DNA of 64,000 nt, from NCBI RefSeq assembly GCF_000812185.1, contig NZ_CP007026.1, forward strand, positions 62,001 through 126,000. The letters run 5' to 3'. The position numbers and the translations under genes were made by a program. The notes below the pieces were generated by a model, which ran no database searches, was not told the DNA's origin, and worked only from the letters and a program-made list of their open reading frames with translations. This document shows positions 49,623 to 64,000 of this stretch, one piece after another (position 1 is the stretch's first letter; every line of letters starts with the position of its first letter). This DNA comes from Candidatus Nitrosopelagicus brevis (GTDB lineage: Archaea; Thermoproteota; Nitrososphaeria; Nitrososphaerales; Nitrosopumilaceae).

Positions 49623-50687
49623 CTAATTATATCCTATATTATGTTTTTTTAAGTGATTTAAAAAATCATTACAAATTTTATCCCAATTGAAATTATTTTC
49701 TACAAATTCTTTACCTTTCTTACCCATTTTATTTGCATCCTCTAAATTGTTTAATAATGTTGAAAGTTTTTCAAATAATTCCTTTGAACTATTTTTTTCA
49801 ATTAAGAATCCTGTCTCTCCATCTTTCATCAATTCGGGAATTCCTCCAACATTAGTTGCAATAACAGGTTTTTCCATTAATTGAGCTTCCTGTAGAGTAA
49901 GTGGTGACATATCTATTCCACTGATTAATGTGTAAACATCAATTTCTGTTAAAAATTCTCTCACTTTATCTGGATATTCTAATGAGCCAAGCCAGTGAAA
50001 ATTTTCATATTTTTCTAACAATGGAAGAATTTTATCTCTATAAACCCCATCTCCTGCCCAATAGAACTCCACATTAGGCATTTTCTCTAAAATTTCTGGT
50101 AGAATCATTAGTTCTTTTGTTTTTTCCCAAATTGTTGCACTTTGTAAAATTCCTACACATGGATGTTTTAATTCCATTCCTTTTTTTTGGAACCAATTAT
50201 CTGAATTAATTCCTTGGTACATTGTTTCTATAGATTTTTTTTTATATCTTTTTTTAGTAACTTCTGAAAGATAATTACAAATTGGAAATATCATTTTTGA
50301 ATCATTAAAACAAATTTCTCCTATTTCATCCCATTTATTTATGGCTATTTTCTTTCCTGCAGATTTGTATAATGTTTCTTTTGCCATAATCATTTCTGCC
50401 CAGTGATCACCTCTCAAATGAATTACCAATGGAATGTTAGTTTTTGATGCTTCTAATGCAAAGTGTCTTGTTCTGTCTACAAAAATAATATCTGGCTTAA
50501 ATTCTTCAATTAAATTTTTAAATTTTTTATTTGAATTAAACCAATTTTTTACTTTTCTACTTGGAAATCCATCTGCGTAATCAGAATCCAAAATAACTTT
50601 ACACGTTATTCCTTTTTCTTCTAAATTCTTTGCAAATTCCTTTAAATGAAAAAGCTTTGAACTTGATCCGCCAATCAATAATCTCAT
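49623..50687 (-). CDS. Glycosyltransferase family 4 (paralogue of 57267-58349)
   Basis: The 354-residue GT-B enzyme begins MRLLIGGSSSKLFHLKEFAK and has the donor-side signature TLQEAQLMEKPVIATNVGGIPELM. It is clearly a paralogue of the gene at 57267: both share FHLKEF, DYA.GFPSR, IPL.IHLRG-type segments and the EYPDKVREFLTEIDVY region. The pair flank the central pathway genes, which suggests duplication for two linkages in the same glycan. It sits one base from the aminotransferase and one base from the epimerase gene. Confidence 0.94.
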   Translation of the reverse strand: MRLLIGGSSSKLFHLKEFAKNLEEKGITCKVILDSDYADGFPSRKVKNWFNSNKKFKNLIEEFKPDIIFVDRTRHFALEASKTNIPLVIHLRGDHWAEMIMAKETLYKSAGKKIAINKWDEIGEICFNDSKMIFPICNYLSEVTKKRYKKKSIETMYQGINSDNWFQKKGMELKHPCVGILQSATIWEKTKELMILPEILEKMPNVEFYWAGDGVYRDKILPLLEKYENFHWLGSLEYPDKVREFLTEIDVYTLISGIDMSPLTLQEAQLMEKPVIATNVGGIPELMKDGETGFLIEKNSSKELFEKLSTLLNNLEDANKMGKKGKEFVENNFNWDKICNDFLNHLKKHNIGYN

Positions 50688-50688
50688 T

Positions 50689-51585
50689 TTATAATATCTC
50701 CGTTAACCACTTACGAAGATCTTTTTTTGGTTTCCAATTGAAAGATTTTACTGCTAATTTATTATCTGCTTGACTCATTTTTATATCTCCTTCGAGTGGA
50801 GCATCAAAAATCGGTTGCATTTCTAATCCTGAAACATCTATCATCATTTTTGCTAATTCTAATATTGAAATTGCATCTCCTGTTCCCACATTTACTAATA
50901 ATTCTGTTTTGTGACTTTCCATGCATAATAAATTCATCATAACAACATCTTCCACGTAAATAAAATCGCGTATTTGAGTCCCATCACCAAAAATTATTGG
51001 AGGTTGTTTTTGATTTATTCTATCAATGAATTTTGTGATAACACCTGCATATTCAAGTGTTTGACCTTTTCCAAAAATATTGAAATATCTTAAACCAATA
51101 ATTTTAGCTCCCATTTTTGAATATTTTTCAAATAAAAATTCGTCATCTAATTTTGTCTGACCGTATGGATTAATTGGATTTCTTTCTGAATCTTCATTGA
51201 TAGGCATAGTTTCTTTATGTCCATAAACACTTGAACTACTTGCATATACTACTTTGAAATTATTTTTTTTCGCTAATCTGAATATATTTTCAGTCCCTAT
51301 AACATTTACATCATGATATTCTTCTGGCCTGTCAAAGGAATCTTGTACAACTGTTAATGCTGCTTGATGAAAAACACCGTCAATATTCGAAAGAATTTTC
51401 TCTAAACTTGCATAATCTCTAATGTCAATCTCTTCAAATTGTATTTTTGATAGAACTGATTCTAAATTATCTTTTTTTCCTTTATGTAAATTGTCAATAA
51501 CTATAACTTGATGCCCCTTTCTAACTAATAATTTAACTAGATAGCTTCCTACAAAACCTGCACCTCCTGTCACTACATATTTCAA
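50689..51585 (-). CDS. NAD-dependent nucleotide-sugar epimerase (GalE-like)
   Basis: The 298-residue extended SDR has the NAD motif GGAGFVGSYLVKLL, the catalytic Ser in SSSSVYGHKE and Tyr/Lys in NPYGQTKLDDEF (YxxxK), and the sugar-binding FNIFGKGQ. It probably interconverts UDP-glucose-type sugars or UDP-glucuronate and UDP-galacturonate, the latter being attractive because UDP-glucose dehydrogenase is the next gene upstream. GalE enzymes are usually about 330 residues, so this is a slightly short member. Confidence 0.94.
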   Translation of the reverse strand: MKYVVTGGAGFVGSYLVKLLVRKGHQVIVIDNLHKGKKDNLESVLSKIQFEEIDIRDYASLEKILSNIDGVFHQAALTVVQDSFDRPEEYHDVNVIGTENIFRLAKKNNFKVVYASSSSVYGHKETMPINEDSERNPINPYGQTKLDDEFLFEKYSKMGAKIIGLRYFNIFGKGQTLEYAGVITKFIDRINQKQPPIIFGDGTQIRDFIYVEDVVMMNLLCMESHKTELLVNVGTGDAISILELAKMMIDVSGLEMQPIFDAPLEGDIKMSQADNKLAVKSFNWKPKKDLRKWLTEIL

Positions 51586-51586
51586 T

Positions 51587-52894
51587 TTATTTTCCTATTC
51601 CTAATGCAAAATATTCTGCATTCATATTTTTTTTAGAAAATATTCTTCTGCAATCAATAATTAATTTTCTTTTCATTAGTCTTATTGATTTATTGTTTAT
51701 TTTTTCAAATTCTTTCCAATATGTCATAAATATTGCACATTGACTATTTTCTAAAGCACGAATCATAGAATCCTCGTATGTAATTTTTTTATCAAATATT
51801 TTTTTAGTATTATCTATTGCCTTAGGATCATAAATTGTTATATTTGCTTTCATTTTCAAAAGTTTTTTTATTAATTCAATTGATATGGAATCTCTCACAT
51901 CATCTGTGTTTGGTTTAAATGCAGTACCCATAATTGTGATTCTTTTTGAAGAAATACCTTTCAGTTTCTTTTCAACTAATTTTATAATTTGTTCTAGTTG
52001 TTTTGTATTGATTTCTTCTACAGCATTAAGAAGTGATGGCTTTACTCCAATATCATTTGCAAAATTTATGAGTGCTTTCATATCTTTTGGAAGACATGAA
52101 CCTCCATATCCTGGTCCTGCATTAAGAAATAATTTTCCAATACGTTGATCTAACCCAATTGTTTTTGAAATATCATCAATATTTGCTTCAGGAATATTCT
52201 GACAAATATTACTTAATTGATTGATAAAGCTAATTTTTGTTGCAAGAAATGAATTATTTGCATATTTGACCATTTCTGCAGTTTGATGGTTTGTAATTAT
52301 TATTGCTGTATTTGGGTGTAATTTAGAAAAAAAGTGTTTGGCCTTTTTCATATATTTTGTATTGTAACCACCTAGAACTACTGCATGTGGAAATTTTGTA
52401 TCTTTTATTGCACTAGTCTCTTGTAAAAATTCTGGGTTTGATATTAATCCAAATTCTTTACCAGCTTTTTTCTTCGAATTTTTTTCTAATATTGGTAAAA
52501 TTACATTTTTCATAGTTCCTGGTGTTACAGTACTTTTGATAAAAATTATCTGATCTTTTTTATTTTTGTACATACTTTTACTAATTTTGGTAATCGATTT
52601 TCTTATCATAGAAAGATCAATTGCACCATTTGATTTTTGAGGTGTTCCCACAGCTACAAAAATAAAATCGCAATTTCTAACAAGAGAAAAATCATTACTT
52701 ATTGTTAATTTCTTTTTTAATCCCTCTCTAAGTGTTTTTTCTAATTTGGGTTCAAAAAATGGTGGATTTCCTGCTGAAATTTCTTTACATTTCTTTATGT
52801 CAATATCTATTCCAATAGTTTCGTATCCTTTCGCGGCTAAAACACTAGTTAATGATAATCCAACAAAACCTAATCCAATAATTGCAATTTTCAT
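51587..52894 (-). CDS. ugd: UDP-glucose 6-dehydrogenase
   Basis: The 435-residue three-domain enzyme oxidises UDP-glucose to UDP-glucuronate with two NAD+. The Rossmann motif GLGFVGLSLTSVLA is near residue 7, the catalytic Cys is C267 in GYGGSCLPKD, and the C-terminal UDP-binding domain has MGTAFKPNTDDVRDS. It is read after galU with a 25-base gap, so GalU supplies its substrate. The product feeds uronate-containing glycans. Confidence 0.95.
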   Translation of the reverse strand: MKIAIIGLGFVGLSLTSVLAAKGYETIGIDIDIKKCKEISAGNPPFFEPKLEKTLREGLKKKLTISNDFSLVRNCDFIFVAVGTPQKSNGAIDLSMIRKSITKISKSMYKNKKDQIIFIKSTVTPGTMKNVILPILEKNSKKKAGKEFGLISNPEFLQETSAIKDTKFPHAVVLGGYNTKYMKKAKHFFSKLHPNTAIIITNHQTAEMVKYANNSFLATKISFINQLSNICQNIPEANIDDISKTIGLDQRIGKLFLNAGPGYGGSCLPKDMKALINFANDIGVKPSLLNAVEEINTKQLEQIIKLVEKKLKGISSKRITIMGTAFKPNTDDVRDSISIELIKKLLKMKANITIYDPKAIDNTKKIFDKKITYEDSMIRALENSQCAIFMTYWKEFEKINNKSIRLMKRKLIIDCRRIFSKKNMNAEYFALGIGK

Positions 52895-52919: not shown

Positions 52920-53759
52920 TTATGCTTTCCTAAATGTAATATTTTGTGAATTTTTATATGATTCAACATTGCCTACGTCTATTTCATCTTCATTTTTATT
53001 TAATGGAATTGCGAGAACTTGTTTTTTTTCTTTAATTAAATTTTGTATTGCATCTGTTAGTTGAAATTCTTTACCTTTTCCTGGTTTGATTTTTCTCAAG
53101 CTTGAAAAAATATCTGATCGAAAATAATATAATGCTAAAATTCCAAAATTTGATTTTGGTTTTTCAGGTTTTTCTATTACTTCTTTAACTGAAAATAAAT
53201 TATTTGATATTTTTTCTATTGTTGGAACCCCATATCGTTTAGGATCTATAATTTCTTTACAAAGTAGAATTGCTTTTGCTTCTGGATTTTTTTTTGCAAC
53301 TTCAATTAATCTTTTAATGGGATGTTTTACTTTACTGAGAATGGCAACATCTCCTGCATGAACAATAAAATCTTCTGTACCAACATATCTTTCTGTACGT
53401 TTTACAGCGTCTCCAAAACCTAATGGCTTGTTTTGATTAATCCAAACTAAATGCGAATTTTCTAATTTTTTATAAAAACTATTCATATATTTTCTATAAT
53501 CTCCAGATATTTCTTTCAAATAAGCATCATGTGGAGTGAAATGATCCTCTATTGATCTCTTTTCACGACCTACAACAAAACAATAATCTCTAAAATTCAT
53601 AGAATACATCTGTTCATAAATATATTGTAATAACGGCATTACCACTTTTTTATTTACAGATACTTTTGAAAAAACTGGTACCATCTCTTTTGGCATTTCT
53701 TTTGTAAATGGTAATAGTCTTGTACCCTTTCCAGCTGCAGTAATAACTACTTTAGTCAC
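52920..53759 (-). CDS. galU: UTP-glucose-1-phosphate uridylyltransferase
   Basis: The 279-residue GalU has ITAAGKGTRLLPFTKEMPKEMVPV (nucleotide loop, cited in part), IVHAGDVAIL, and VIEKPEKPKSNFG. It makes UDP-glucose from UTP and glucose-1-phosphate, the common entry to the island. It is the first gene of the minus-strand operon galU-ugd-epimerase-GT-aminotransferase, starting from the symmetrical promoter region at 53792-53831. Confidence 0.95.
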   Translation of the reverse strand: MTKVVITAAGKGTRLLPFTKEMPKEMVPVFSKVSVNKKVVMPLLQYIYEQMYSMNFRDYCFVVGREKRSIEDHFTPHDAYLKEISGDYRKYMNSFYKKLENSHLVWINQNKPLGFGDAVKRTERYVGTEDFIVHAGDVAILSKVKHPIKRLIEVAKKNPEAKAILLCKEIIDPKRYGVPTIEKISNNLFSVKEVIEKPEKPKSNFGILALYYFRSDIFSSLRKIKPGKGKEFQLTDAIQNLIKEKKQVLAIPLNKNEDEIDVGNVESYKNSQNITFRKA

Positions 53760-53871: not shown

Positions 53872-55239
53872 ATGTCAAATTCAAGAATTAATATGAATAA
53901 TGTTGAGGCTGTATCCAATTCACTAACCTCAAAATCATTAAAAGTTTGTGTGATTGGAATAGGCAGAATTGGTCTTCCAACTGCTTTATCCTTTGCAAAA
54001 TCTGGATTAGAAACAATTGGTGTAGATATCAATGAAAGTTTAGTACAAAATATCAATTCCGGAAAATTTCCATTAAAAGACGAACCGGGATATGATAAAA
54101 TTTTTGATGACGTTATAAAAAATAAAAAATTTTCTGCAACTACTAATATTGAAAAAGCTGTACCAAACTCTGATCTAGTGCTTCTATCATTACCTACTCC
54201 AATGGATGAAAATAATGTACCAGATTATTCTGCATTACGAACTGTAGGTATGAAATTATCTGAAGTGTTATCCCCTAATTCTTTAGTAATTGTTGAAAGT
54301 ACAATTGAACCTGGATTTATTGAAGATGAAATGGTGTCATTAATTTCAAAATCTGATAGATTGAAAATAAATGACAATTTCTTTATTGGTGTTTGTCCTG
54401 AAAATGCAAATCCAGGAGAAATATTACATGATTTTACAAATTTACCTAGATTAGTTGGAGGTATTAACCAAAATATTACACAAATAATCAAATCTATATA
54501 CAATTTTGTATTTAATGTTGAATTAGTTGAAATGCCAAATTGTAAAACTGCAAATGCTGTAAAACTGACAACAAATGTTTTTCGTGATATTAACATTGCA
54601 TATATTAGTGAACTTGCATTAATGTTTGAAAAATTAGGAATAGATACAAACATTGTCTTAGAAGCAGCAAAAAAGAAATATAATTTTCAAGTTCATTATC
54701 CTGGTTCTGGTGTAGGTGGACCTTGTCTTCCAATCAACTCATATCAACTTCTTAATACTGCAAGAAGAACAAATTCTAATCTAAGTATAATTGAATCAGG
54801 TAGAAAAATCAATGAAAAAATGCCTGAACATGTAATCAACTTAACTTTAGATGGATTCCAAGAATGTAACCAAAATATCAAAGAAGCTACAATTTTGATT
54901 CTTGGAATATCGTATAAACCAAATGTCAAAGATATTCAATTAACTCCTGCAGAAATTATTATTAAAAAACTACAAGAGTTAGGAGTAACTGTGTGCATTT
55001 ATGATCCATATTTTAAAGATGTTGATGTTTTTGGAATTAAATCTGAAAAAAATCTTGATGATATAATCCCCAATGTTGATGCTGCAATTATTGTAACAGG
55101 CCATGATGAATTTAAAAAATTAGAACTCTCAAAATTTAGTCAAATGAAAAATAAGATATTAATTGATACAAGAGGAATAATTGAACCAAATTCAGCAAAA
55201 AATGAAAATTTAATTTTTAGAGGACTTGGACGTGGATAA
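53872..55239 (+). CDS. Nucleotide-sugar dehydrogenase (WecC/WbpA-like)
   Basis: The 455-residue enzyme of the UDP-GlcNAc/UDP-ManNAc dehydrogenase group has IGRIGLPTALSFAKSG near the NAD site, the catalytic C285 in GSGVGGPCLPINSY, and the C-terminal LGISYKPNVKDIQLTP. It has about 25 extra N-terminal residues before the Rossmann fold. It oxidises the C6 of a UDP-amino sugar or UDP-glucose to a uronic acid. The next gene, an asparagine-synthetase-like amidase, overlaps it by 14 bases, which hints that its carboxylate product is amidated. Confidence 0.93.
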   Translation: MSNSRINMNNVEAVSNSLTSKSLKVCVIGIGRIGLPTALSFAKSGLETIGVDINESLVQNINSGKFPLKDEPGYDKIFDDVIKNKKFSATTNIEKAVPNSDLVLLSLPTPMDENNVPDYSALRTVGMKLSEVLSPNSLVIVESTIEPGFIEDEMVSLISKSDRLKINDNFFIGVCPENANPGEILHDFTNLPRLVGGINQNITQIIKSIYNFVFNVELVEMPNCKTANAVKLTTNVFRDINIAYISELALMFEKLGIDTNIVLEAAKKKYNFQVHYPGSGVGGPCLPINSYQLLNTARRTNSNLSIIESGRKINEKMPEHVINLTLDGFQECNQNIKEATILILGISYKPNVKDIQLTPAEIIIKKLQELGVTVCIYDPYFKDVDVFGIKSEKNLDDIIPNVDAAIIVTGHDEFKKLELSKFSQMKNKILIDTRGIIEPNSAKNENLIFRGLGRG

Positions 55240-56452
55240 TAATTCACAATCAATTAATCCTTTATCTCTTGTAAACATTCTAACTTTGCGATATGATCCG
55301 TCTATAATCCCTAACCTTCCTACAAAAAACTTTCAACATTTTGAATCTATACACGAACAACCTAATGTTGATAAAATTGAAAAATCAATTTGTAAAAATA
55401 TTGAGCAAAAATTACAGACATTTGACAAACAAAAAATTTGTATTGCATTGAGTGGTGGAGTTGATTCCACATTAGTATTATCATTATTACGAAAAATTAA
55501 ACCTGATATTGAAATAGAAGCTTTATCTATAAAATTTGCAAATAGTGTAGATGAAACTAAAAATGCATCTAAAATAGCTGATACATTTGATGCAAATCAT
55601 ACTATAATTAATCTTGAAAATTATCTATCTGAATTACCTAAAGCAATTAGCATGATAAAACTTCCTTTTTGGGATCTACATTGGTATTATGTTGCAAAAG
55701 CATCACAACCTATTTCAAAATTTCTTGTTTCAGGTGATGGTGGTGATGAACTTTTTGGTGGTTACACCTTTAGATACAAAAAATTTCTTTCATTAACAAA
55801 TGAAACTTCAAGTCCATTAGAAAAAACAAAAGCATATTTAGAATGTCATGAGAGAGATCGTGTTTCTGATCAAGAAGATATTTTTACAAAAAAATCTAAT
55901 TTTTCATGGAATTTAATTCATGAACAACTTATTCCTTATTTTGATAACAGTTTATCTAATTTAGAACAAATATTCTTAGCGGATTACAATGGAAAATTAT
56001 TGTACAATTTTAATCCTGTAAATTCGAGAATAATTAATTCTCTTGAAATGAATTTACTTACTCCTATTCTTAATGATGATTTGATTTTGTCTGCTCCACA
56101 TATTCCAATTGAATACAAATATGATGAGATTACAAATATTGGAAAAATACCATTACGTTCTATCTTAAAAAAGAATGGTCATGATTCTTTAGTTTCTTCA
56201 GAAAAATTAGGATTTAATGTTAACACAATTAATCTTTGGAAATCTCATGGTCATTCATTATGTAAAGAATTTCTTTCTGATTCAAGAGTAGTTAAAGATG
56301 GTTGGATAAACAATGAATGGATTCAAAAACACATTGATTCTCCGGAGTTAGATGTGAAATATGTTAACAAATTTTTAGGCATTTTAGCTTTTGAAATTTG
56401 GTATAGATTATTCATTACCAAAGAAATGAGTAGTAATACTACATTAGATTAA
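55226..56452 (+). CDS. Asparagine-synthetase-type amidoligase lacking the glutaminase domain
   Basis: The 408-residue protein aligns with only the C-terminal synthetase half of AsnB. The ATP PP-loop SGGVDSTL is at 76-83, SGDGGDELFGGY near 175 and KIPLRSILKK plus SEKLGF in the C-terminal region. No N-terminal Cys-2 glutaminase domain is present; the start is TTG at 55226, inside the end of the dehydrogenase gene. AsnB-like proteins such as WbpS amidate uronic acids in O-antigen synthesis, so the likely reaction is uronate to uronamide. Without a glutaminase it would need free ammonia or a partner. That is inference. Confidence 0.88.
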   Translation: MDVDNNSQSINPLSLVNILTLRYDPSIIPNLPTKNFQHFESIHEQPNVDKIEKSICKNIEQKLQTFDKQKICIALSGGVDSTLVLSLLRKIKPDIEIEALSIKFANSVDETKNASKIADTFDANHTIINLENYLSELPKAISMIKLPFWDLHWYYVAKASQPISKFLVSGDGGDELFGGYTFRYKKFLSLTNETSSPLEKTKAYLECHERDRVSDQEDIFTKKSNFSWNLIHEQLIPYFDNSLSNLEQIFLADYNGKLLYNFNPVNSRIINSLEMNLLTPILNDDLILSAPHIPIEYKYDEITNIGKIPLRSILKKNGHDSLVSSEKLGFNVNTINLWKSHGHSLCKEFLSDSRVVKDGWINNEWIQKHIDSPELDVKYVNKFLGILAFEIWYRLFITKEMSSNTTLD

Positions 56453-56466
56453 TTTAGTATACAAAA

Positions 56467-57264
56467 ATGAAAATAATAATGAAAAAAGATATTGTTGCTG
56501 GATTAGGCGAAATCGGTCTTCCAATTTTAAAAATCCTATCTAAAAAAGAAAATATTGTGGGTTATGATCTAAATGAAAAATTAATGAATAAAAATAAATT
56601 TCAAAAACTTAGTGAATTACCAACATCTTTCCTTCATGTAGCAATTCCGGTAACTATAAAATTTGACTCTAGTTTAATTCAATTAAACAAGAAATTCAAA
56701 CCTGATTGTATTGTAATTCACAGTACAATTCCTCCTGGAACAACAGAGAGACTTCAAAGAAAAATTAATTCCCCAATAATTTTTAGTGCGACTAGAGGTG
56801 TTCATAAAAGAATGTTAAAAGATCTTAAACATTATACAAAATTCTTTGCAATCTCTAATTCTGCTCCAAAAAAACAATGGGCAATCAAAACTTTCTCCAA
56901 AAAAATGAAAAATTCTGGAATAAGGACTAAACAAATGACAAAACCTGAAACCTTGGAATTAGCTAAAATTCTATGTGACACATCATATCTTGGATGGTTA
57001 ATTAATTATTCACAAATTACTAATGTTATAGCAAAAAACTTTGACGTTAATTACGATGAAATGTGGACTTTTTCAGATGAAATTCATAAACGTTTAGGAA
57101 ATAGACCCAAAATGTATCCTGGTTATATTGGAGGGCATTGTGTAATTCCAAATTTAGAACTAATTAATAACCAAACATTGAATCTAATTAAAGAAATGAA
57201 TACCTCTTATAGTAAAAAAATCAAAAACACAAAATCAATCTATAAAAAATATCTGAAAACTTAG
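56467..57264 (+). CDS. Short nucleotide-sugar-dehydrogenase-like protein lacking the UDP domain
   Basis: The 265-residue protein keeps the NAD motif GLGEIG (12-17), SNSAP and HSTIPPGT segments of the family, and a Cys at 225 in YIGGHCVIPN that matches the catalytic Cys of the WbpA-like group. It stops where the C-terminal UDP-binding domain of the usual 430-residue enzymes begins. The frame is intact and codon use normal, so it looks like a stable shortened form rather than decay. It could act on a different, carrier-bound substrate. It follows the amidoligase by 14 bases. Confidence 0.8.
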   Translation: MKIIMKKDIVAGLGEIGLPILKILSKKENIVGYDLNEKLMNKNKFQKLSELPTSFLHVAIPVTIKFDSSLIQLNKKFKPDCIVIHSTIPPGTTERLQRKINSPIIFSATRGVHKRMLKDLKHYTKFFAISNSAPKKQWAIKTFSKKMKNSGIRTKQMTKPETLELAKILCDTSYLGWLINYSQITNVIAKNFDVNYDEMWTFSDEIHKRLGNRPKMYPGYIGGHCVIPNLELINNQTLNLIKEMNTSYSKKIKNTKSIYKKYLKT

Positions 57265-57266
57265 TA

Positions 57267-58349
57267 CTATTTTTTAACATATTTTTCTGCAACAGCAATA
57301 AATTTTCTTGCAACTATATCCCAATTAAATTTCTCAGAAAGTAATTCTCTAGATTGTTTTCCTAGTTTAGTTGCAACATCTTTATTTTCAATTAAATATT
57401 TTATCGAATTAATCCATGTTTCATGATCTCCTTCGTTAACAAGTAGACCAGTTTTTTCATGATAAATCATTTCAGGAATACCGCCAACATTAGATGCTAT
57501 GATTGGTTTTTCCATAGCCATAGCTTCTCTACATGATAGAGGTGTTGTATCCATGCCAGTAGGTAATGCGTAAACATCAATTTCTGTCAAATATTCTCTT
57601 ATCTTTTCTGGATAGGAAAGAAAACCTAAATAATGAAAATTTTTGTATTTTTCAAGTTTATCTAAAATCTGTTTTTTATATTGTCCATCTCCCACCCAAT
57701 AGAAATGCACATCTGGTAATTTTTTCACAACTTCATCCAATGTCAACATCTCCTTTGTCTTACCCCACCAATTTGCATCATGAGACATTCCTACACATGG
57801 ATGTTCCAACGTCATTCCTCTTGCAGGGTACCATCTTGAAGCATCTAATCCTTCAAGAAAATGAAATGTTTTTGCATTAGGAATATGTTCCTTAATGACA
57901 TCTTCCAAATAGTCTGCTGTCATAAAAATTCCTTGACATTCACGAAAAACTTTTTCAGCATTTTTTTGTCGTAAATTTAAAACAGTACGCATTAGTAGAC
58001 CTTTGTATATTGTTTTTTTTGCCCATTCTTGTTCCATCCAGAAATGACCTCTAAGATAAACAAATAGAGGAATATTTTTTTTAATAGTTTCTAAACCAAA
58101 ATGAGATTGCCTATCCACAAAAACTACATCAGGATCATAATCATTAATTAAATCATTAAATTTTTTTTTAGAAAACCAATCGCCAAGATTTCTACTTGGA
58201 AACCCTTTGGCATAATCGACTTCTCTAACTAATTTGTAATCATGTCCTATTTTTTTTAATGCTTCACCAAATTCTTTTAAATGGAAATATTTCCCAATGC
58301 TTTTCTTAGAAGTACCTCCTCCAGCACCTGATGCAATTAAAACTCTCAA
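57267..58349 (-). CDS. Glycosyltransferase family 4 (paralogue of 49623-50687)
   Basis: The 360-residue GT-B enzyme starts MRVLIASGAGGGTSKKSIGK and has CREAMAMEKPIIASNVGGIPEMI at the donor site. The acceptor half shares FHLKEF, DYAKGFPSR and FVYLRGHFW-like stretches with its paralogue at 49623. It is on the opposite strand to the dehydrogenase-amidoligase unit and ends two bases from it. It probably adds the modified sugar or a neighbour of it. Confidence 0.94.
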   Translation of the reverse strand: MRVLIASGAGGGTSKKSIGKYFHLKEFGEALKKIGHDYKLVREVDYAKGFPSRNLGDWFSKKKFNDLINDYDPDVVFVDRQSHFGLETIKKNIPLFVYLRGHFWMEQEWAKKTIYKGLLMRTVLNLRQKNAEKVFRECQGIFMTADYLEDVIKEHIPNAKTFHFLEGLDASRWYPARGMTLEHPCVGMSHDANWWGKTKEMLTLDEVVKKLPDVHFYWVGDGQYKKQILDKLEKYKNFHYLGFLSYPEKIREYLTEIDVYALPTGMDTTPLSCREAMAMEKPIIASNVGGIPEMIYHEKTGLLVNEGDHETWINSIKYLIENKDVATKLGKQSRELLSEKFNWDIVARKFIAVAEKYVKK

Positions 58350-58455: not shown

Positions 58456-59565
58456 ATGAATCGAATATTAATAATTTTCTTGTTAGTTTCTTTTGTAATA
58501 ATTTTCTTTTTAGGATTGTATGTTGGATTATACAAAATTTTTCCTTTTTCTGAGTTGAATAATTTAAAAGATGAACTAGAATTACGATCTTATAATTTAG
58601 ATTATAATTCTTACCCGGTTGAGATCAATAATTTAATTTCTCTTCAAAACTCAAATGATATAGAACAAAAAAGAAAAGAACTAATCAAATTTATTTGGAA
58701 AACAAATTCTTTACCACAAGAGTTACCAAATACTATTGACAGAAATATTATTGATAAAAGATTTAGTGATCTTTCTAATCTCAAACAAATTGATCGTTTA
58801 ACAATAAAAATGGAACATGAATTATCGTCAATTGTTTATGTTTTCCTACCTGAAAAAAGTAATGGAAATGTAATGATCTATCATCAAGGTCATTCTGGTG
58901 GTTTTGTAAATGGAAAATCAACTATTGAAAAATTTCTTGATAGTGGTTTCACAGTAGCTGCTTTTTCCATGCCTTTAATTGGATTAAATAATCAACCTGT
59001 AATCGAGATTGAAAATCTTGGCTCAGTTAAATTATTCAAACATAATCAATTTGTACTTCTTGAATCAGAAAACTTTTCCAGTTTGAGTTATTTCTTTACA
59101 CCAATTTCCATCACATTAAATTACTTGTCAGAAAATTTTTCATTTGATGATTTTCACATGATTGGAATATCTGGTGGAGGTTGGACAACTACCGTTTATC
59201 CTGCATTAGATACTCGAATCACAAAATCCTTTTCCGTAGCAGGTTCATTACCTCTCTCATTAAGAATTGTAGTAGATGATGTAGGTGATTACGAACAATT
59301 TCATCCAGAATTCTATTCTATAGCAAATTACCTAGAACTTTACATAATGAGTTCATCTGGAAATGGCAGAGAACATTTTCAAATTTTTAACAAATATGAT
59401 ACATGTTGTTTTGCAGTAAACTCTTTAGATCTATTTGATGATTCTATGAAAAAATATTTTTCTAAATTTGACTCTGGCAATTTTGATATTTTAATAGATG
59501 ATACTCATAAACAACATAAAATATCTAATTCTATATCTGATATTATTATAAAGAAAATTACTTAA
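58456..59565 (+). CDS. Membrane-anchored alpha/beta-hydrolase
   Basis: The 369-residue protein has an N-terminal signal-anchor (about 4-26) and an alpha/beta-hydrolase-like domain expected outside the cell. The nucleophile elbow G-I-S-G-G-G lies near residue 240 (IGISGGGWTTT), preceded by the oxyanion-type strand MIYHQGHSGGF, and late Asp (near 332) and His residues could complete a triad. It may remove acyl groups from the surface glycan. It is monocistronic and converges with the sulfotransferase gene. Confidence 0.78.
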   Translation: MNRILIIFLLVSFVIIFFLGLYVGLYKIFPFSELNNLKDELELRSYNLDYNSYPVEINNLISLQNSNDIEQKRKELIKFIWKTNSLPQELPNTIDRNIIDKRFSDLSNLKQIDRLTIKMEHELSSIVYVFLPEKSNGNVMIYHQGHSGGFVNGKSTIEKFLDSGFTVAAFSMPLIGLNNQPVIEIENLGSVKLFKHNQFVLLESENFSSLSYFFTPISITLNYLSENFSFDDFHMIGISGGGWTTTVYPALDTRITKSFSVAGSLPLSLRIVVDDVGDYEQFHPEFYSIANYLELYIMSSSGNGREHFQIFNKYDTCCFAVNSLDLFDDSMKKYFSKFDSGNFDILIDDTHKQHKISNSISDIIIKKIT

Positions 59566-60413
59566 TTCTCCCAATCAAATTTTTTCCCAATTAGTTCAAA
59601 AAGTTCTTCATTATGTATTTTGAAAAATTCTCTTAATTTATCGCGTGTTTTTCCATTCATAGGTGAATATTCACCTTTTTCCATATGCACTTTATTTTTT
59701 ATTTGAATTTCAGCTATATCTAAAAATTGAAATATTTTTCTGTAAATATTCTCTTCATTATCTCTAAATTCTTCTGTAGATAATACAAGAATTTTCTCTT
59801 TTGAAAAAATATCGAACCATGGTTTTAATTGTAAAGCATACAAACTTTTTTTAATATAATGTCTGTGTTCTTTTGGAAATTCAAGTGACCTATCTCTGTA
59901 TTTTTCTGAAATTTCTGTTTCTAATCTCTTCATTTCTTCAATTATTGCTTCATCAAAATCAAGTTTTTCAGTTTTTTCTTTCACTGTTATATTATATTGT
60001 GAATAAGCTCTGTCAATAGGATTTCGTAACATAACTATAATTTTTACATCAGGTTGAGTTTTTTTTATATTCTCTGCAGTGATCTTAGTTTCCATATATC
60101 TAGTTGTTACATCAAATGCCAAAAATTTTCCATATTGTTTTTCAATTTTTCTCTTTTGTGAGATAGTTGGGAAAAAAGATTTGTACCAATTAATACCTAA
60201 ATGAAAATTATCATTAAAAAAGCCCATATTATCATGATGTGATCTTGCAATTGAAGGGTGTTCTGGAAGATAAGAAAACAATGATGTAGTGCCACATCGT
60301 TTTGCGCCTATTATTATGAAATCTGGTAAAACTCTAGATGAAGAAGTAACACCAAAAATATGTCTCTTTACAAATAAATGATAACATTTTCTAATCGTAT
60401 TATGTAGATTCAT
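59562..60413 (-). CDS. Sulfotransferase
   Basis: The 283-residue PAPS-dependent sulfotransferase has a 5'-phosphosulfate loop IIGAKRCGTTSLFSYL near residue 33, and the 3'-phosphate region VKIIVMLRNPIDRAYSQYNI near 115. The organisation matches heparan-sulfate and Nod-factor sulfotransferases. It would add sulfate to a sugar hydroxyl. No PAPS-forming gene is in the window. Located in the same glycan island. Confidence 0.92.
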   Translation of the reverse strand: MNLHNTIRKCYHLFVKRHIFGVTSSSRVLPDFIIIGAKRCGTTSLFSYLPEHPSIARSHHDNMGFFNDNFHLGINWYKSFFPTISQKRKIEKQYGKFLAFDVTTRYMETKITAENIKKTQPDVKIIVMLRNPIDRAYSQYNITVKEKTEKLDFDEAIIEEMKRLETEISEKYRDRSLEFPKEHRHYIKKSLYALQLKPWFDIFSKEKILVLSTEEFRDNEENIYRKIFQFLDIAEIQIKNKVHMEKGEYSPMNGKTRDKLREFFKIHNEELFELIGKKFDWEN

Positions 60414-61673: not shown

Positions 61674-62219
61674 ATGAATGAAATTAAGAAATCAAAAGAT
61701 GATTTACTCAGTAGATCTTGGTACTATTTTCGTATTGGATGGTCAACATACTTATCATTTATTTTTGCAGCATTAACCACTCTAACTGTAACATTTTATC
61801 TAATAATAGATGATTACCCTGTTCTCAAATCAGTCTTTCCAACTTTTGAAGTATATCTTACAGTATTTTCTGCCATTGGATTTCCTCTAATTATTGCAAT
61901 AGGATATGGACATTTCAAGCGAACAAAAGCAAGAAAGGCCGAAGTTGATATTGAACTTGAAACAGATCCTTACAGACTCCGAACTCTAGTTAATTCAGAT
62001 ATGATTCTAAACTTATATCTAAAATATTATTCCATATTCCTTCATCGTTATGATGGCAACATAACCGAACAAGAAAAAAATAATTATTTGGAGATTTTAA
62101 ACCAGATTCAATCATTTGTCAAAGATAGAAAGTTATTAAGTAAACATGATACAAAATTTATAGAACATATTGATACCTTTCCAAAATCTAAAAATTCTGA
62201 TCATAGGTTGATGAGTTGA
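61674..62219 (+). CDS. Two-pass membrane protein, first of a tandem pair
   Basis: The 181-residue protein has two close membrane helices (about 25-48 and 62-84), then a cytoplasmic basic segment FKRTKARKAEVDIELET and a helical C-terminal tail. Its neighbour at 62226 is a paralogue: WSTYLSFIFAALTTLTVTFYL here reads WSTYFAFIFAAINTLTVTFYL there, and YPVLKSVFPTFE is identical. No catalytic motif. A role as a small scaffold or regulator at the membrane is possible. Confidence 0.82.
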   Translation: MNEIKKSKDDLLSRSWYYFRIGWSTYLSFIFAALTTLTVTFYLIIDDYPVLKSVFPTFEVYLTVFSAIGFPLIIAIGYGHFKRTKARKAEVDIELETDPYRLRTLVNSDMILNLYLKYYSIFLHRYDGNITEQEKNNYLEILNQIQSFVKDRKLLSKHDTKFIEHIDTFPKSKNSDHRLMS

Positions 62220-62225
62220 TAATAC

Positions 62226-62738
62226 ATGAAAAATAAAGAATTATTTAAAAAAAATCCTTTGTTTCGTGCTTGGTTTTATTTTCGTATGGGATGGTCAACA
62301 TACTTTGCATTTATTTTTGCAGCAATAAACACTCTAACTGTAACATTTTATTTAGCAATAGAAAATTACCCTGTTCTCAAATCAGTCTTTCCAACTTTTG
62401 AAATTTATGTAATTATAACGGTCTTAATTGGAATTCCTTTACTTGTTACAATAGGTTATGCACATTACAAAAGAACAAAAGCAAGAAAAGCTGAAGTTGA
62501 TATTCTTGTAGAAACCAATCCGTACATTATGAGAACACTAGTGAACACTGATCTAGTTTTAATTTTGACTCTAAAATTAGCTGAAATAATTAAAAATTCA
62601 AATGATGATAGTATTCCAAAAGAATTATTGGATGAATTAACAAAATTACAAGATGAACTCAAAGAGTTTTCAAGTCAAAGAAAATTTAGAAATGAAAAGG
62701 ATCTTCAATTTTTTAAAAATATTGATAGAAAGTGGTAA
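62226..62738 (+). CDS. Two-pass membrane protein, second of a tandem pair
   Basis: The 170-residue paralogue of the preceding gene shares its two-helix N-terminal domain and the KRTKARKAEVDI segment, with a more diverged C-terminal coiled-coil-like tail (LDELTKLQDELKEFSSQRKF). The gap from the first gene is only six bases, so they are probably co-translated and may form a heteromer. The DNA of the two N-terminal halves is unusually alike, with a 38-base identical run (61813-61850 and 62365-62402). Confidence 0.82.
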   Translation: MKNKELFKKNPLFRAWFYFRMGWSTYFAFIFAAINTLTVTFYLAIENYPVLKSVFPTFEIYVIITVLIGIPLLVTIGYAHYKRTKARKAEVDILVETNPYIMRTLVNTDLVLILTLKLAEIIKNSNDDSIPKELLDELTKLQDELKEFSSQRKFRNEKDLQFFKNIDRKW

Positions 62739-62739
62739 T

Positions 62740-64000
62740 TTAATTCTCTAATGAAATTTCAGCAAGTAATCTCTCCATTTCATTAACTTTATTCTTATTA
62801 TTTTCTGAAATATTTTCTTCTTCTAATGGGTCTGAATGTAGATCATAAAGATGAACATTTTTCATACAATCATCTCTATCTCGAAAATACTTGTAGTCTG
62901 ATGTTCTAATTCCAATAACTTTAGTATCTGTTTTTTCGTCGGAAAAATTTTCTGTACTCTGTAAATATGCAGGTAATTCATCTAGATCCTCATTATTAAA
63001 ATAAGGAAAAAGTGTTCTACCATGTATTTTTTCATAAAAAGAAAAACCAACTAAACTGAAAACTGTTGGAAAAATATCTACACTTCTTACTTGTTTATCG
63101 ATTATCTTATTCTCATTTACTCCGTATCCTGTAAATAATAAAGGAATAACAAATCTTTCATCAAAAACCTGACTCTTACCTAGAATAATGTTTTCCATTA
63201 TTCTTTTTTTATATGGTGATAACTGTAAACTTTCAAGTTTTTTTAAATCCGGTTCAAGACTATTTTCAATAATATTCTCTCTTCTCTTTGTATAACTTTT
63301 TGAAAGAATCTTTCTCATTGGTTTTAAAAATCCTGGTGATCTTGAAATAATTTTATGACTAACATCAAATGCTTTTCCTTTTGGAATTTTCTTTTTATTT
63401 CGAATCTGTAAATTTAAACGATCCATCTCTTTATCAAATACTCCTACATCTGAACCATGATCTGCAGAAATAACAACTAATGTTTTCTCAAAATCTATCT
63501 CTTCAAAAATCTTACCTAACCATTTATCCATTAAAGATACCATTCGTTCATATTGATTTTTTCCAAGATTAACATCTTCAAAGTCTTCATGTTGAAAATC
63601 TTTATGAAAAATCGCTGGTCCATGAATATCATTTAAGTGAATGTACCAAAACCATTTACTCTTTTCTTTCTTTTCTTTCATTTTGGCAATTAATTCATCA
63701 CCGATTCCATCGTAAAGTGTAGAATTATCATCATAAGAATCTAAATTATCCCCAAATATTTTTTCTAGAGAAAGATTAGTTAAAATTTTTGGAATAAATC
63801 CATACATTTCGTAATTCCTTTTTTTTAATTCTTTTAAAAAAAACATTGAACTTTCTACAATTTCAGATTTTTTTTCATTTTGTTTAAATGAATCAAATGG
63901 GTAATTACCTGTTAAAAGGCTAGATATTGCTGGAAGTGATGATGAAGCAGAGCTAATTGTTTGTGAAAAATATACTCCACGTTGAATCAATTTATCAATA
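62740..64000 (-). CDS. Alkaline-phosphatase/sulfatase-superfamily protein (partial)
   Basis: The reading frame stays open to the window edge on the minus strand, so the true start lies outside; about 420 residues are visible. The ISADHGSDVGVFDKE metal motif and the C-terminal RDRDDCMKNVHLYDLHSDPLEE resemble arylsulfatases. The N-terminal motif reads S-L-P-A-I-S-S-L-L-T-G where true sulfatases have C/S-x-P-x-R ... L-T-G, so the arginine needed for formylglycine formation is absent. A Ser- or Thr-dependent phospho-transferase or esterase acting on the glycan or lipid is therefore likelier than sulfate ester hydrolysis. Confidence 0.85.
   Translation of the reverse strand, partial: IDKLIQRGVYFSQTISSASSSLPAISSLLTGNYPFDSFKQNEKKSEIVESSMFFLKELKKRNYEMYGFIPKILTNLSLEKIFGDNLDSYDDNSTLYDGIGDELIAKMKEKKEKSKWFWYIHLNDIHGPAIFHKDFQHEDFEDVNLGKNQYERMVSLMDKWLGKIFEEIDFEKTLVVISADHGSDVGVFDKEMDRLNLQIRNKKKIPKGKAFDVSHKIISRSPGFLKPMRKILSKSYTKRRENIIENSLEPDLKKLESLQLSPYKKRIMENIILGKSQVFDERFVIPLLFTGYGVNENKIIDKQVRSVDIFPTVFSLVGFSFYEKIHGRTLFPYFNNEDLDELPAYLQSTENFSDEKTDTKVIGIRTSDYKYFRDRDDCMKNVHLYDLHSDPLEEENISENNKNKVNEMERLLAEISLEN

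Follow-up and report, generated by a model that had tools for sequence, protein, structure and literature searches.

We describe a putative route to amidated surface sugars in Candidatus Nitrosopelagicus brevis, encoded in a 64,000-nucleotide stretch (hereafter the window) that covers positions 62001–126000 of a genome assembled as a single contig, 1,232,128 bases long (NZ_CP007026.1). Three consecutive plus-strand open reading frames (ORFs; Table 1) encode a sugar dehydrogenase, P1 (455 aa), a protein resembling the synthetase half of the asparagine synthetase AsnB, P2 (408 aa, with a TTG start codon), and a short dehydrogenase-like protein, P3 (265 aa). The P1 and P2 ORFs share 14 bases, and 14 bases separate P2 from P3. 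We hold it somewhat better than an even chance that P1 and P2 carry out ammonia-using synthesis of uronic-acid amides in the manner of the bacterial WbpS/WbqG enzymes, without the glutaminase half that those enzymes possess. An original prediction for this locus had given the same coordinates, overlap and gap, a PP-loop (SGGVDS) at residues 76–81 of P2, the lack of a glutaminase domain in P2 and, in P3, a Cys at position 225 together with the loss of the C-terminal UDP-binding domain; our ORF check and domain searches agreed on every one of these points, and placed this Cys within GGHCVIPN.

Sequence and structure of P1 and P2

P1 carries the N-terminal, central and C-terminal UDPG/GDPM dehydrogenase domains (Pfam) and, at 368 bits against a cut-off of 190, is a full member of TIGR03026, to which UDP-ManNAc, UDP-GlcNAc and UDP-glucose 6-dehydrogenases belong. 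Its best equivalog is the UDP-ManNAc dehydrogenase NF040825 (292 bits, under the cut-off of 750), and its closest solved relatives are the UDP-ManNAc dehydrogenase 4r16 and Cap5O (3ojl). The catalytic-type C285, within GVGGPCLP, and K231 are at least 97% conserved among 43 orthologues. As judged from its sequence, P1 is a complete nucleoside diphosphate (NDP)-sugar 6-dehydrogenase of the UDP-N-acetylhexosamine (UDP-HexNAc) type.

A Pfam scan of P2 returned PF00733 (Asn_synthase, E = 4.5e-35) and weaker matches to PP-loop families, and no glutaminase (GATase) family. Residues S76, G78, D80, S81, D174, E175 and K327 did not vary in an alignment of 22 sequences that extended down to 30% identity, and the PP-loop, the SGDGGDE segment and K327 were kept across diverse homologues. 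P2 shares with AsnB (TIGR01536; 1ct9, 6gq3) the PP-loop, the SGxGxDE segment, the fold and a Lys equivalent to K449, K327 aligning with residue 449 of the Escherichia coli enzyme (1ct9), but it lacks the Cys glutaminase domain, has D171 at the position of the Glu in AsnB SGEG (E348 in the usual numbering) and carries LEMNLLTPILND in place of VEARVPFLD. Because this last segment is replaced, the acceptor pocket of P2 is probably unlike that of AsnB; the TIGR01536 score, 81.5 bits, falls short of the cut-off of 267.1. A motif particular to the P2 family, LTLRY, occupies the N-terminus, where a glutaminase would join.

The AlphaFold (AF2) model of P2 was confident, with a predicted local distance difference test score of 92.6, and its best solved fold matches in Foldseek were TsnB9, the carbapenam synthetase CarA, human ASNS and E. 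coli AsnB. TsnB9, CarA and beta-lactam synthetase, although among the best fold matches, act on natural-product substrates, and they keep an N-terminal glutaminase-like domain. A functional parallel is offered by WbpS, WbqG and PGN_1234 (eps_aminotran_1, TIGR03108). P2 has, like them, an AsnB-type synthetase domain with a PP-loop and catalytic Lys, and its gene is likewise linked to those of a UDP-HexNAc 6-dehydrogenase and an epimerase; it is archaeal, however, and lacks their N-terminal class II glutaminase with its Cys nucleophile. The TIGR03108 match (E = 1.6e-17) scores 63.5 bits, not reaching the cut-off of 816.9, and its best stretch spans positions 238–379 of the 628-position model. 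The WbpG/WbuX-PseA N-acetyl sugar amidotransferases are also sugar-amidating PP-loop proteins without a fused glutaminase, but they form a different family, target the acetamido group and have class I glutaminase partners, known or proposed; NCBIfam gave no match of this type to P2.

The P1–P2 pair in related genomes

We surveyed 55 loci whose P2 has at least 43% identity. P1 adjoined P2 in 41 of them (same strand, within 300 bases), nearly always with overlapping ORFs, and since the overlap recurs across the family it is not a product of chance. In 45 loci an epimerase homologue (>45% identity) was found no more than 6 kb from P2; P3 was directly next to P2 in seven, mostly near relatives. 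The conserved unit is the P1–P2 pair, often accompanied by a divergent epimerase, and not the trio. The original prediction had treated the three genes as one module, to be sought in other ammonia-oxidising archaea; that search recovered the P1–P2 portion, with P3 not adjacent in 48 of the 55 loci. Of 250 family genomes, 154 encode P3, some of them without P2, and 78 encode P2.

A P1-type dehydrogenase occurred in 34 of the 38 high-quality genomes that have P2, against 10 of the (at most) 93 that lack it (Fisher p between about 1e-11 and 4e-18, depending on the denominator assumed, and uncorrected for shared ancestry). Three genomes that we take to be those of N. viennensis (G322), N. gargensis (G300) and N. 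evergladensis (G324) hold one P2 homologue each; at the thresholds used, P2 and the P1-type dehydrogenase were absent from those that are presumably N. piranensis (G089), N. maritimus (G087) and N. adriaticus (G082).

One genome outside the order (G722) has, on one strand, a P3-like gene, STT3/AglB and P2, along with an epimerase and two glycosyltransferase-like genes, and this arrangement ties P2 to protein N-glycosylation. The first three of these genes stand in a row (L244:3429-7860) and make up a compact N-glycosylation locus. Two contigs filed under bacterial names (L014 and L018, from a Nitrospina metagenome-assembled genome and one labelled only 'bacterium') carry P1, P2 and P3 about 65–80% identical to those of the window, and are probably mis-binned archaeal DNA.

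Measured glycans and bacterial precedents

The surface-layer (S-layer) N-glycan of N. viennensis carries four Hex(NAc)2(CONH2), diacetamido-hexuronamides, and is the most nitrogen-rich archaeal glycan reported, whereas N-glycans were not detected in N. piranensis (Nakagawa et al. 2025, PMC12153357). The amidating enzyme is not named in that paper, from which the words 'asparagine synth' are absent, and our literature search returned no paper that places an asparagine synthase in a thaumarchaeal glycan locus. Among bacteria, P. gingivalis needs PGN_1234/WbpS to make the uronamide form of a Wbp-pathway sugar (PMC7468200); in H. pullorum a WbpO/WbpS pair contributes to the N-glycan, and the wbpS mutant has HexNAcA in place of the amide (PMC6025236). 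By analogy, P1 and P2 with the epimerase would amount to the WbpO/WbpS-type recipe minus its glutaminase.

We propose that P1 would form a uronic acid by oxidising C6 of a UDP-N-acetylhexosamine (UDP-GlcNAc or one of its derivatives). Within its AsnB-type PP-loop pocket P2, translated from the overlapping frame, would then use ATP to adenylate the carboxylate at C6. Attack of ammonia on the adenylate would yield the uronamide (CONH2), AMP and PPi, and the amidated sugar would pass into surface glycans, most likely AglB-dependent N-glycans. Here the substrate, the use of NH3, the product and its destination are all inferred. That P2 amidates a uronic acid, as originally predicted, is probable, and is its most likely predicted role in light of the dehydrogenase coupling, the glycan neighbourhood, the AglB neighbour in one lineage, the WbpS precedent and the N. 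viennensis uronamides. The description of a 'new type' of glycan amidation was too strong, since the predicted reaction would be a glutaminase-less variant of the WbpS/WbqG type.

P2 might instead join the uronic acid to some other amine (an amino acid, an amino sugar or a polyamine) to give a substituted uronamide. The loss of its glutaminase would then reflect a nucleophile other than ammonia. Carbapenam and beta-lactam synthetases, which form amides on a substrate amine, are indeed among the closest folds; these enzymes, however, form intramolecular rings, the loci examined show no recurrent gene that would supply an amino acid, and plain CONH2 is what was measured in the one P2-bearing archaeon whose glycan has been analysed (PMC12153357). 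We regard coupling to another amine as rather unlikely.

Search for a glutaminase partner

In a tree of 86 proteins, 80 glutaminase-less P2 homologues fell in one clade, confined, in the genomes sampled, to ammonia-oxidising archaea and one outside genome. Its members are mostly 394–457 aa long (one ORF is over-called in GC-rich DNA and two are truncated), and none of 70 P2 homologues has Cys at position 2. GATase-bearing AsnB proteins of the same order (580–628 aa) fell outside this clade, and all three that were scanned contained GATase_7. A glutaminase fused upstream of P2, or hidden by a frameshift, was rejected given the 412-codon open frame, P1 directly upstream and the short clade members; we also rejected a fusion of P2 to another domain in G005, where the 796-aa frame is an extended open frame of GC-rich DNA and the conserved N-terminal motif falls in its middle.

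Only two ORFs in the genome of P2 contain GATase_7, and these (588 and 480 aa) are GlmS- and PurF-like by size. Two class II glutaminases are found in 33 of the 38 P2 genomes, the same as in P2-less genomes; no GATase_7 protein tracking P2 was found across relatives, nor any glutaminase gene in the conserved P2 neighbourhood of the loci examined. The class I glutaminases comprise TrpG, HisH, PdxT, PurQ, ORFs of CarA, GuaA and PyrG size, and a further, unassigned 178-aa protein outside the window (G000:C1:54119-54640; L241:6114-6650) that scores below the GuaA cut-offs.

P2 could be imagined as an amidotransferase fed with ammonia by a glutaminase in trans, an arrangement that has been proposed for acetamidino-sugar enzymes and partners of the HisH type. 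The 178-aa protein might fill this role, or HisH, TrpG, PdxT or PurQ might be shared. The 178-aa protein, however, has a 50% identical orthologue in the P2-less genome G087 and is unlikely to be a P2-specific partner, and the class II enzymes neither track P2 nor lie beside it; we consider feeding in trans unlikely. The original prediction had proposed looking for a separate glutaminase: no dedicated partner was found in this 99.5% complete genome, although this leaves room for a glutaminase of general function. In view of the lack of a dedicated glutaminase and of any P2-tracking GATase_7, free NH3 is a plausible nitrogen source, and free cytosolic NH3 is the most likely one because no partner can be found. 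Lack of a partner does not by itself prove NH3 use; if P2 does amidate a uronic acid, we think its direct use of NH3 quite likely.

Other glutaminase-less, AsnB-like PP-loop proteins occur in the same genome outside the window, one of 315 aa with a zinc-ribbon-like tail (L242:6104-7051; up to 140 bits against AsnB models) and one of 264 aa (L243:6341-7135; up to 103 bits). A same-genus genome (G064, L210:5206-6948) has, in addition to P2, a GATase-bearing AsnB of 580 aa adjoining an epimerase, a natural functional comparison.

The short dehydrogenase P3

P3 shares with TIGR03026 dehydrogenases the N-terminal and central fold and the catalytic-type Cys and Lys, but much sequence similarity is lost (31 bits, not reaching the cut-off of 190) and the C-terminal UDP-binding domain is missing, PF03720 giving no match in P3. 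K167 and C225 are invariant in its orthologues, and N229 and a long NRPKMxPGxIGGHC segment are also kept (13–15 orthologues). The AF2 model resembles, by Foldseek, UGDH 1dli and 4r16 minus the UDP-binding domain, with low confidence around the Cys loop.

P3 homologues in six genomes (L147:6099-8024, L148, L149, L150, L151 and L152) have frames of 632–642 aa, with an insert directly before the equivalent Cys. Three inserts read end to end (L147, L151 and L152) were inteins that split the motif at IGGH|C, one of them confirmed by Pfam, and we rejected fusion of P3 to another enzyme as an explanation of these frames. Inteins are usually located in conserved active sites. Within P3, the intein-bearing frames are found on the 60% identity branch and on the 45% one alike. 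Derivation of P3 as a truncated copy of a Nitrososphaera dehydrogenase near the same MtnA-like gene was not supported, the P3 profile scores being negligible.

P1, P2 and P3 might alternatively work together, as a true complex or as one pathway, with P3 completing or regulating oxidation of the sugar. Such a trio would fit the position of P3 directly after P2 at this locus and at six others, the P3-like gene that precedes P2 by two genes in G722 and the invariance of the active-site-type residues of P3. Set against it are the lack of adjacency between P2 and P3 in most loci and the wider distribution of P3 described above, and we consider it improbable. P3 is a separate glycan-linked dehydrogenase, accessory to the P1–P2 pair and not needed for the argument made for it.

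Genomic surroundings

The genes around P1, P2 and P3 have, by their predicted functions, the character of a surface-glycan island (Table 1), with a DegT aminotransferase and a sulfotransferase also among the neighbours.

Table 1. Features of the P1–P2–P3 locus and its glycan island; positions are those of the window.
Feature	Position	Strand	Evidence
P1, NDP-sugar 6-dehydrogenase, UDP-HexNAc type (predicted)	53872..55239	+	three Pfam domains, TIGR03026, C285/K231
P2, AsnB-type synthetase domain without glutaminase, putative uronic-acid amide synthetase	55226..56452	+	PF00733, conserved residues, AF2/Foldseek
P1/P2 overlap, 14 bases	55226..55239	+	adjoining P1–P2 in 41/55 loci
P3, short UGDH-like dehydrogenase, accessory, without UDP-binding domain	56467..57264	+	TIGR03026 31 bits, alignments, AF2/Foldseek
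Sugar epimerase, GalE/TviC-like SDR, frequent P1–P2 companion	50689..51585	-	PF01370
Second UDP-sugar dehydrogenase, AglM-like	51587..52894	-	TIGR03026 419 bits; NF041297 AglM 394 bits
GalU-like sugar-1-phosphate uridylyltransferase	52920..53759	-	TIGR01099 174 bits
GT4-type glycosyltransferase adjoining the cluster	57267..58349	-	PF00534
GT4-type glycosyltransferase, same glycan island	49623..50687	-	PF00534

Near the island, a sulfotransferase and a sulfatase-family protein (59562-60413 and 62740-63990) suggest sulfated surface sugars. A small membrane protein is apparently tandem-duplicated at 61674-62219 (181 aa) and 62226-62738 (170 aa).

Discussion

That P2 is an ammonia-dependent asparagine synthetase, as its PF00733 fold and similarity to AsnB might suggest, we consider very improbable, given its patchy distribution among the family genomes, its coupling to a sugar dehydrogenase within glycan islands, and the presence of GatB for Asn-tRNA amidation both here and in P2-less genomes, by which asparagine supply probably does not require P2.

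Several observations weigh against uronic-acid amidation by P1 and P2 with free NH3. Four high-quality P2 genomes have no P1-type dehydrogenase at the threshold used. The P2 of the putative N. viennensis genome belongs to a sister subclade and stands alone, outside a glycan cluster, so its link to the clade I P2 is by homology only; the dehydrogenase of that genome is only 28% identical to P1, and the species names attached to the relatives' genomes are putative. A general or promiscuous glutaminase may, moreover, act on P2 in trans.

P2 defines a specific candidate family for the enzyme behind the N. viennensis uronamides, found in the putative N. viennensis genome and not in the putative N. 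piranensis genome. If P2 uses NH3 directly, the cell-surface charge of a group that ranks among the most abundant microbes of the ocean would depend on free ammonia, the molecule that the S-layer is thought to concentrate and that the cell oxidises for energy. More tentatively, and with doubts that for us still outweigh its appeal, these synthetases, a family specific to the lineage of ammonia-oxidising archaea, may take free NH3 directly, at the cost of a little of the cell's energy substrate. Negatively charged surface sugars would in this way become neutral uronamides rich in nitrogen, by which the ammonium-gathering S-layer would have its charge tuned.

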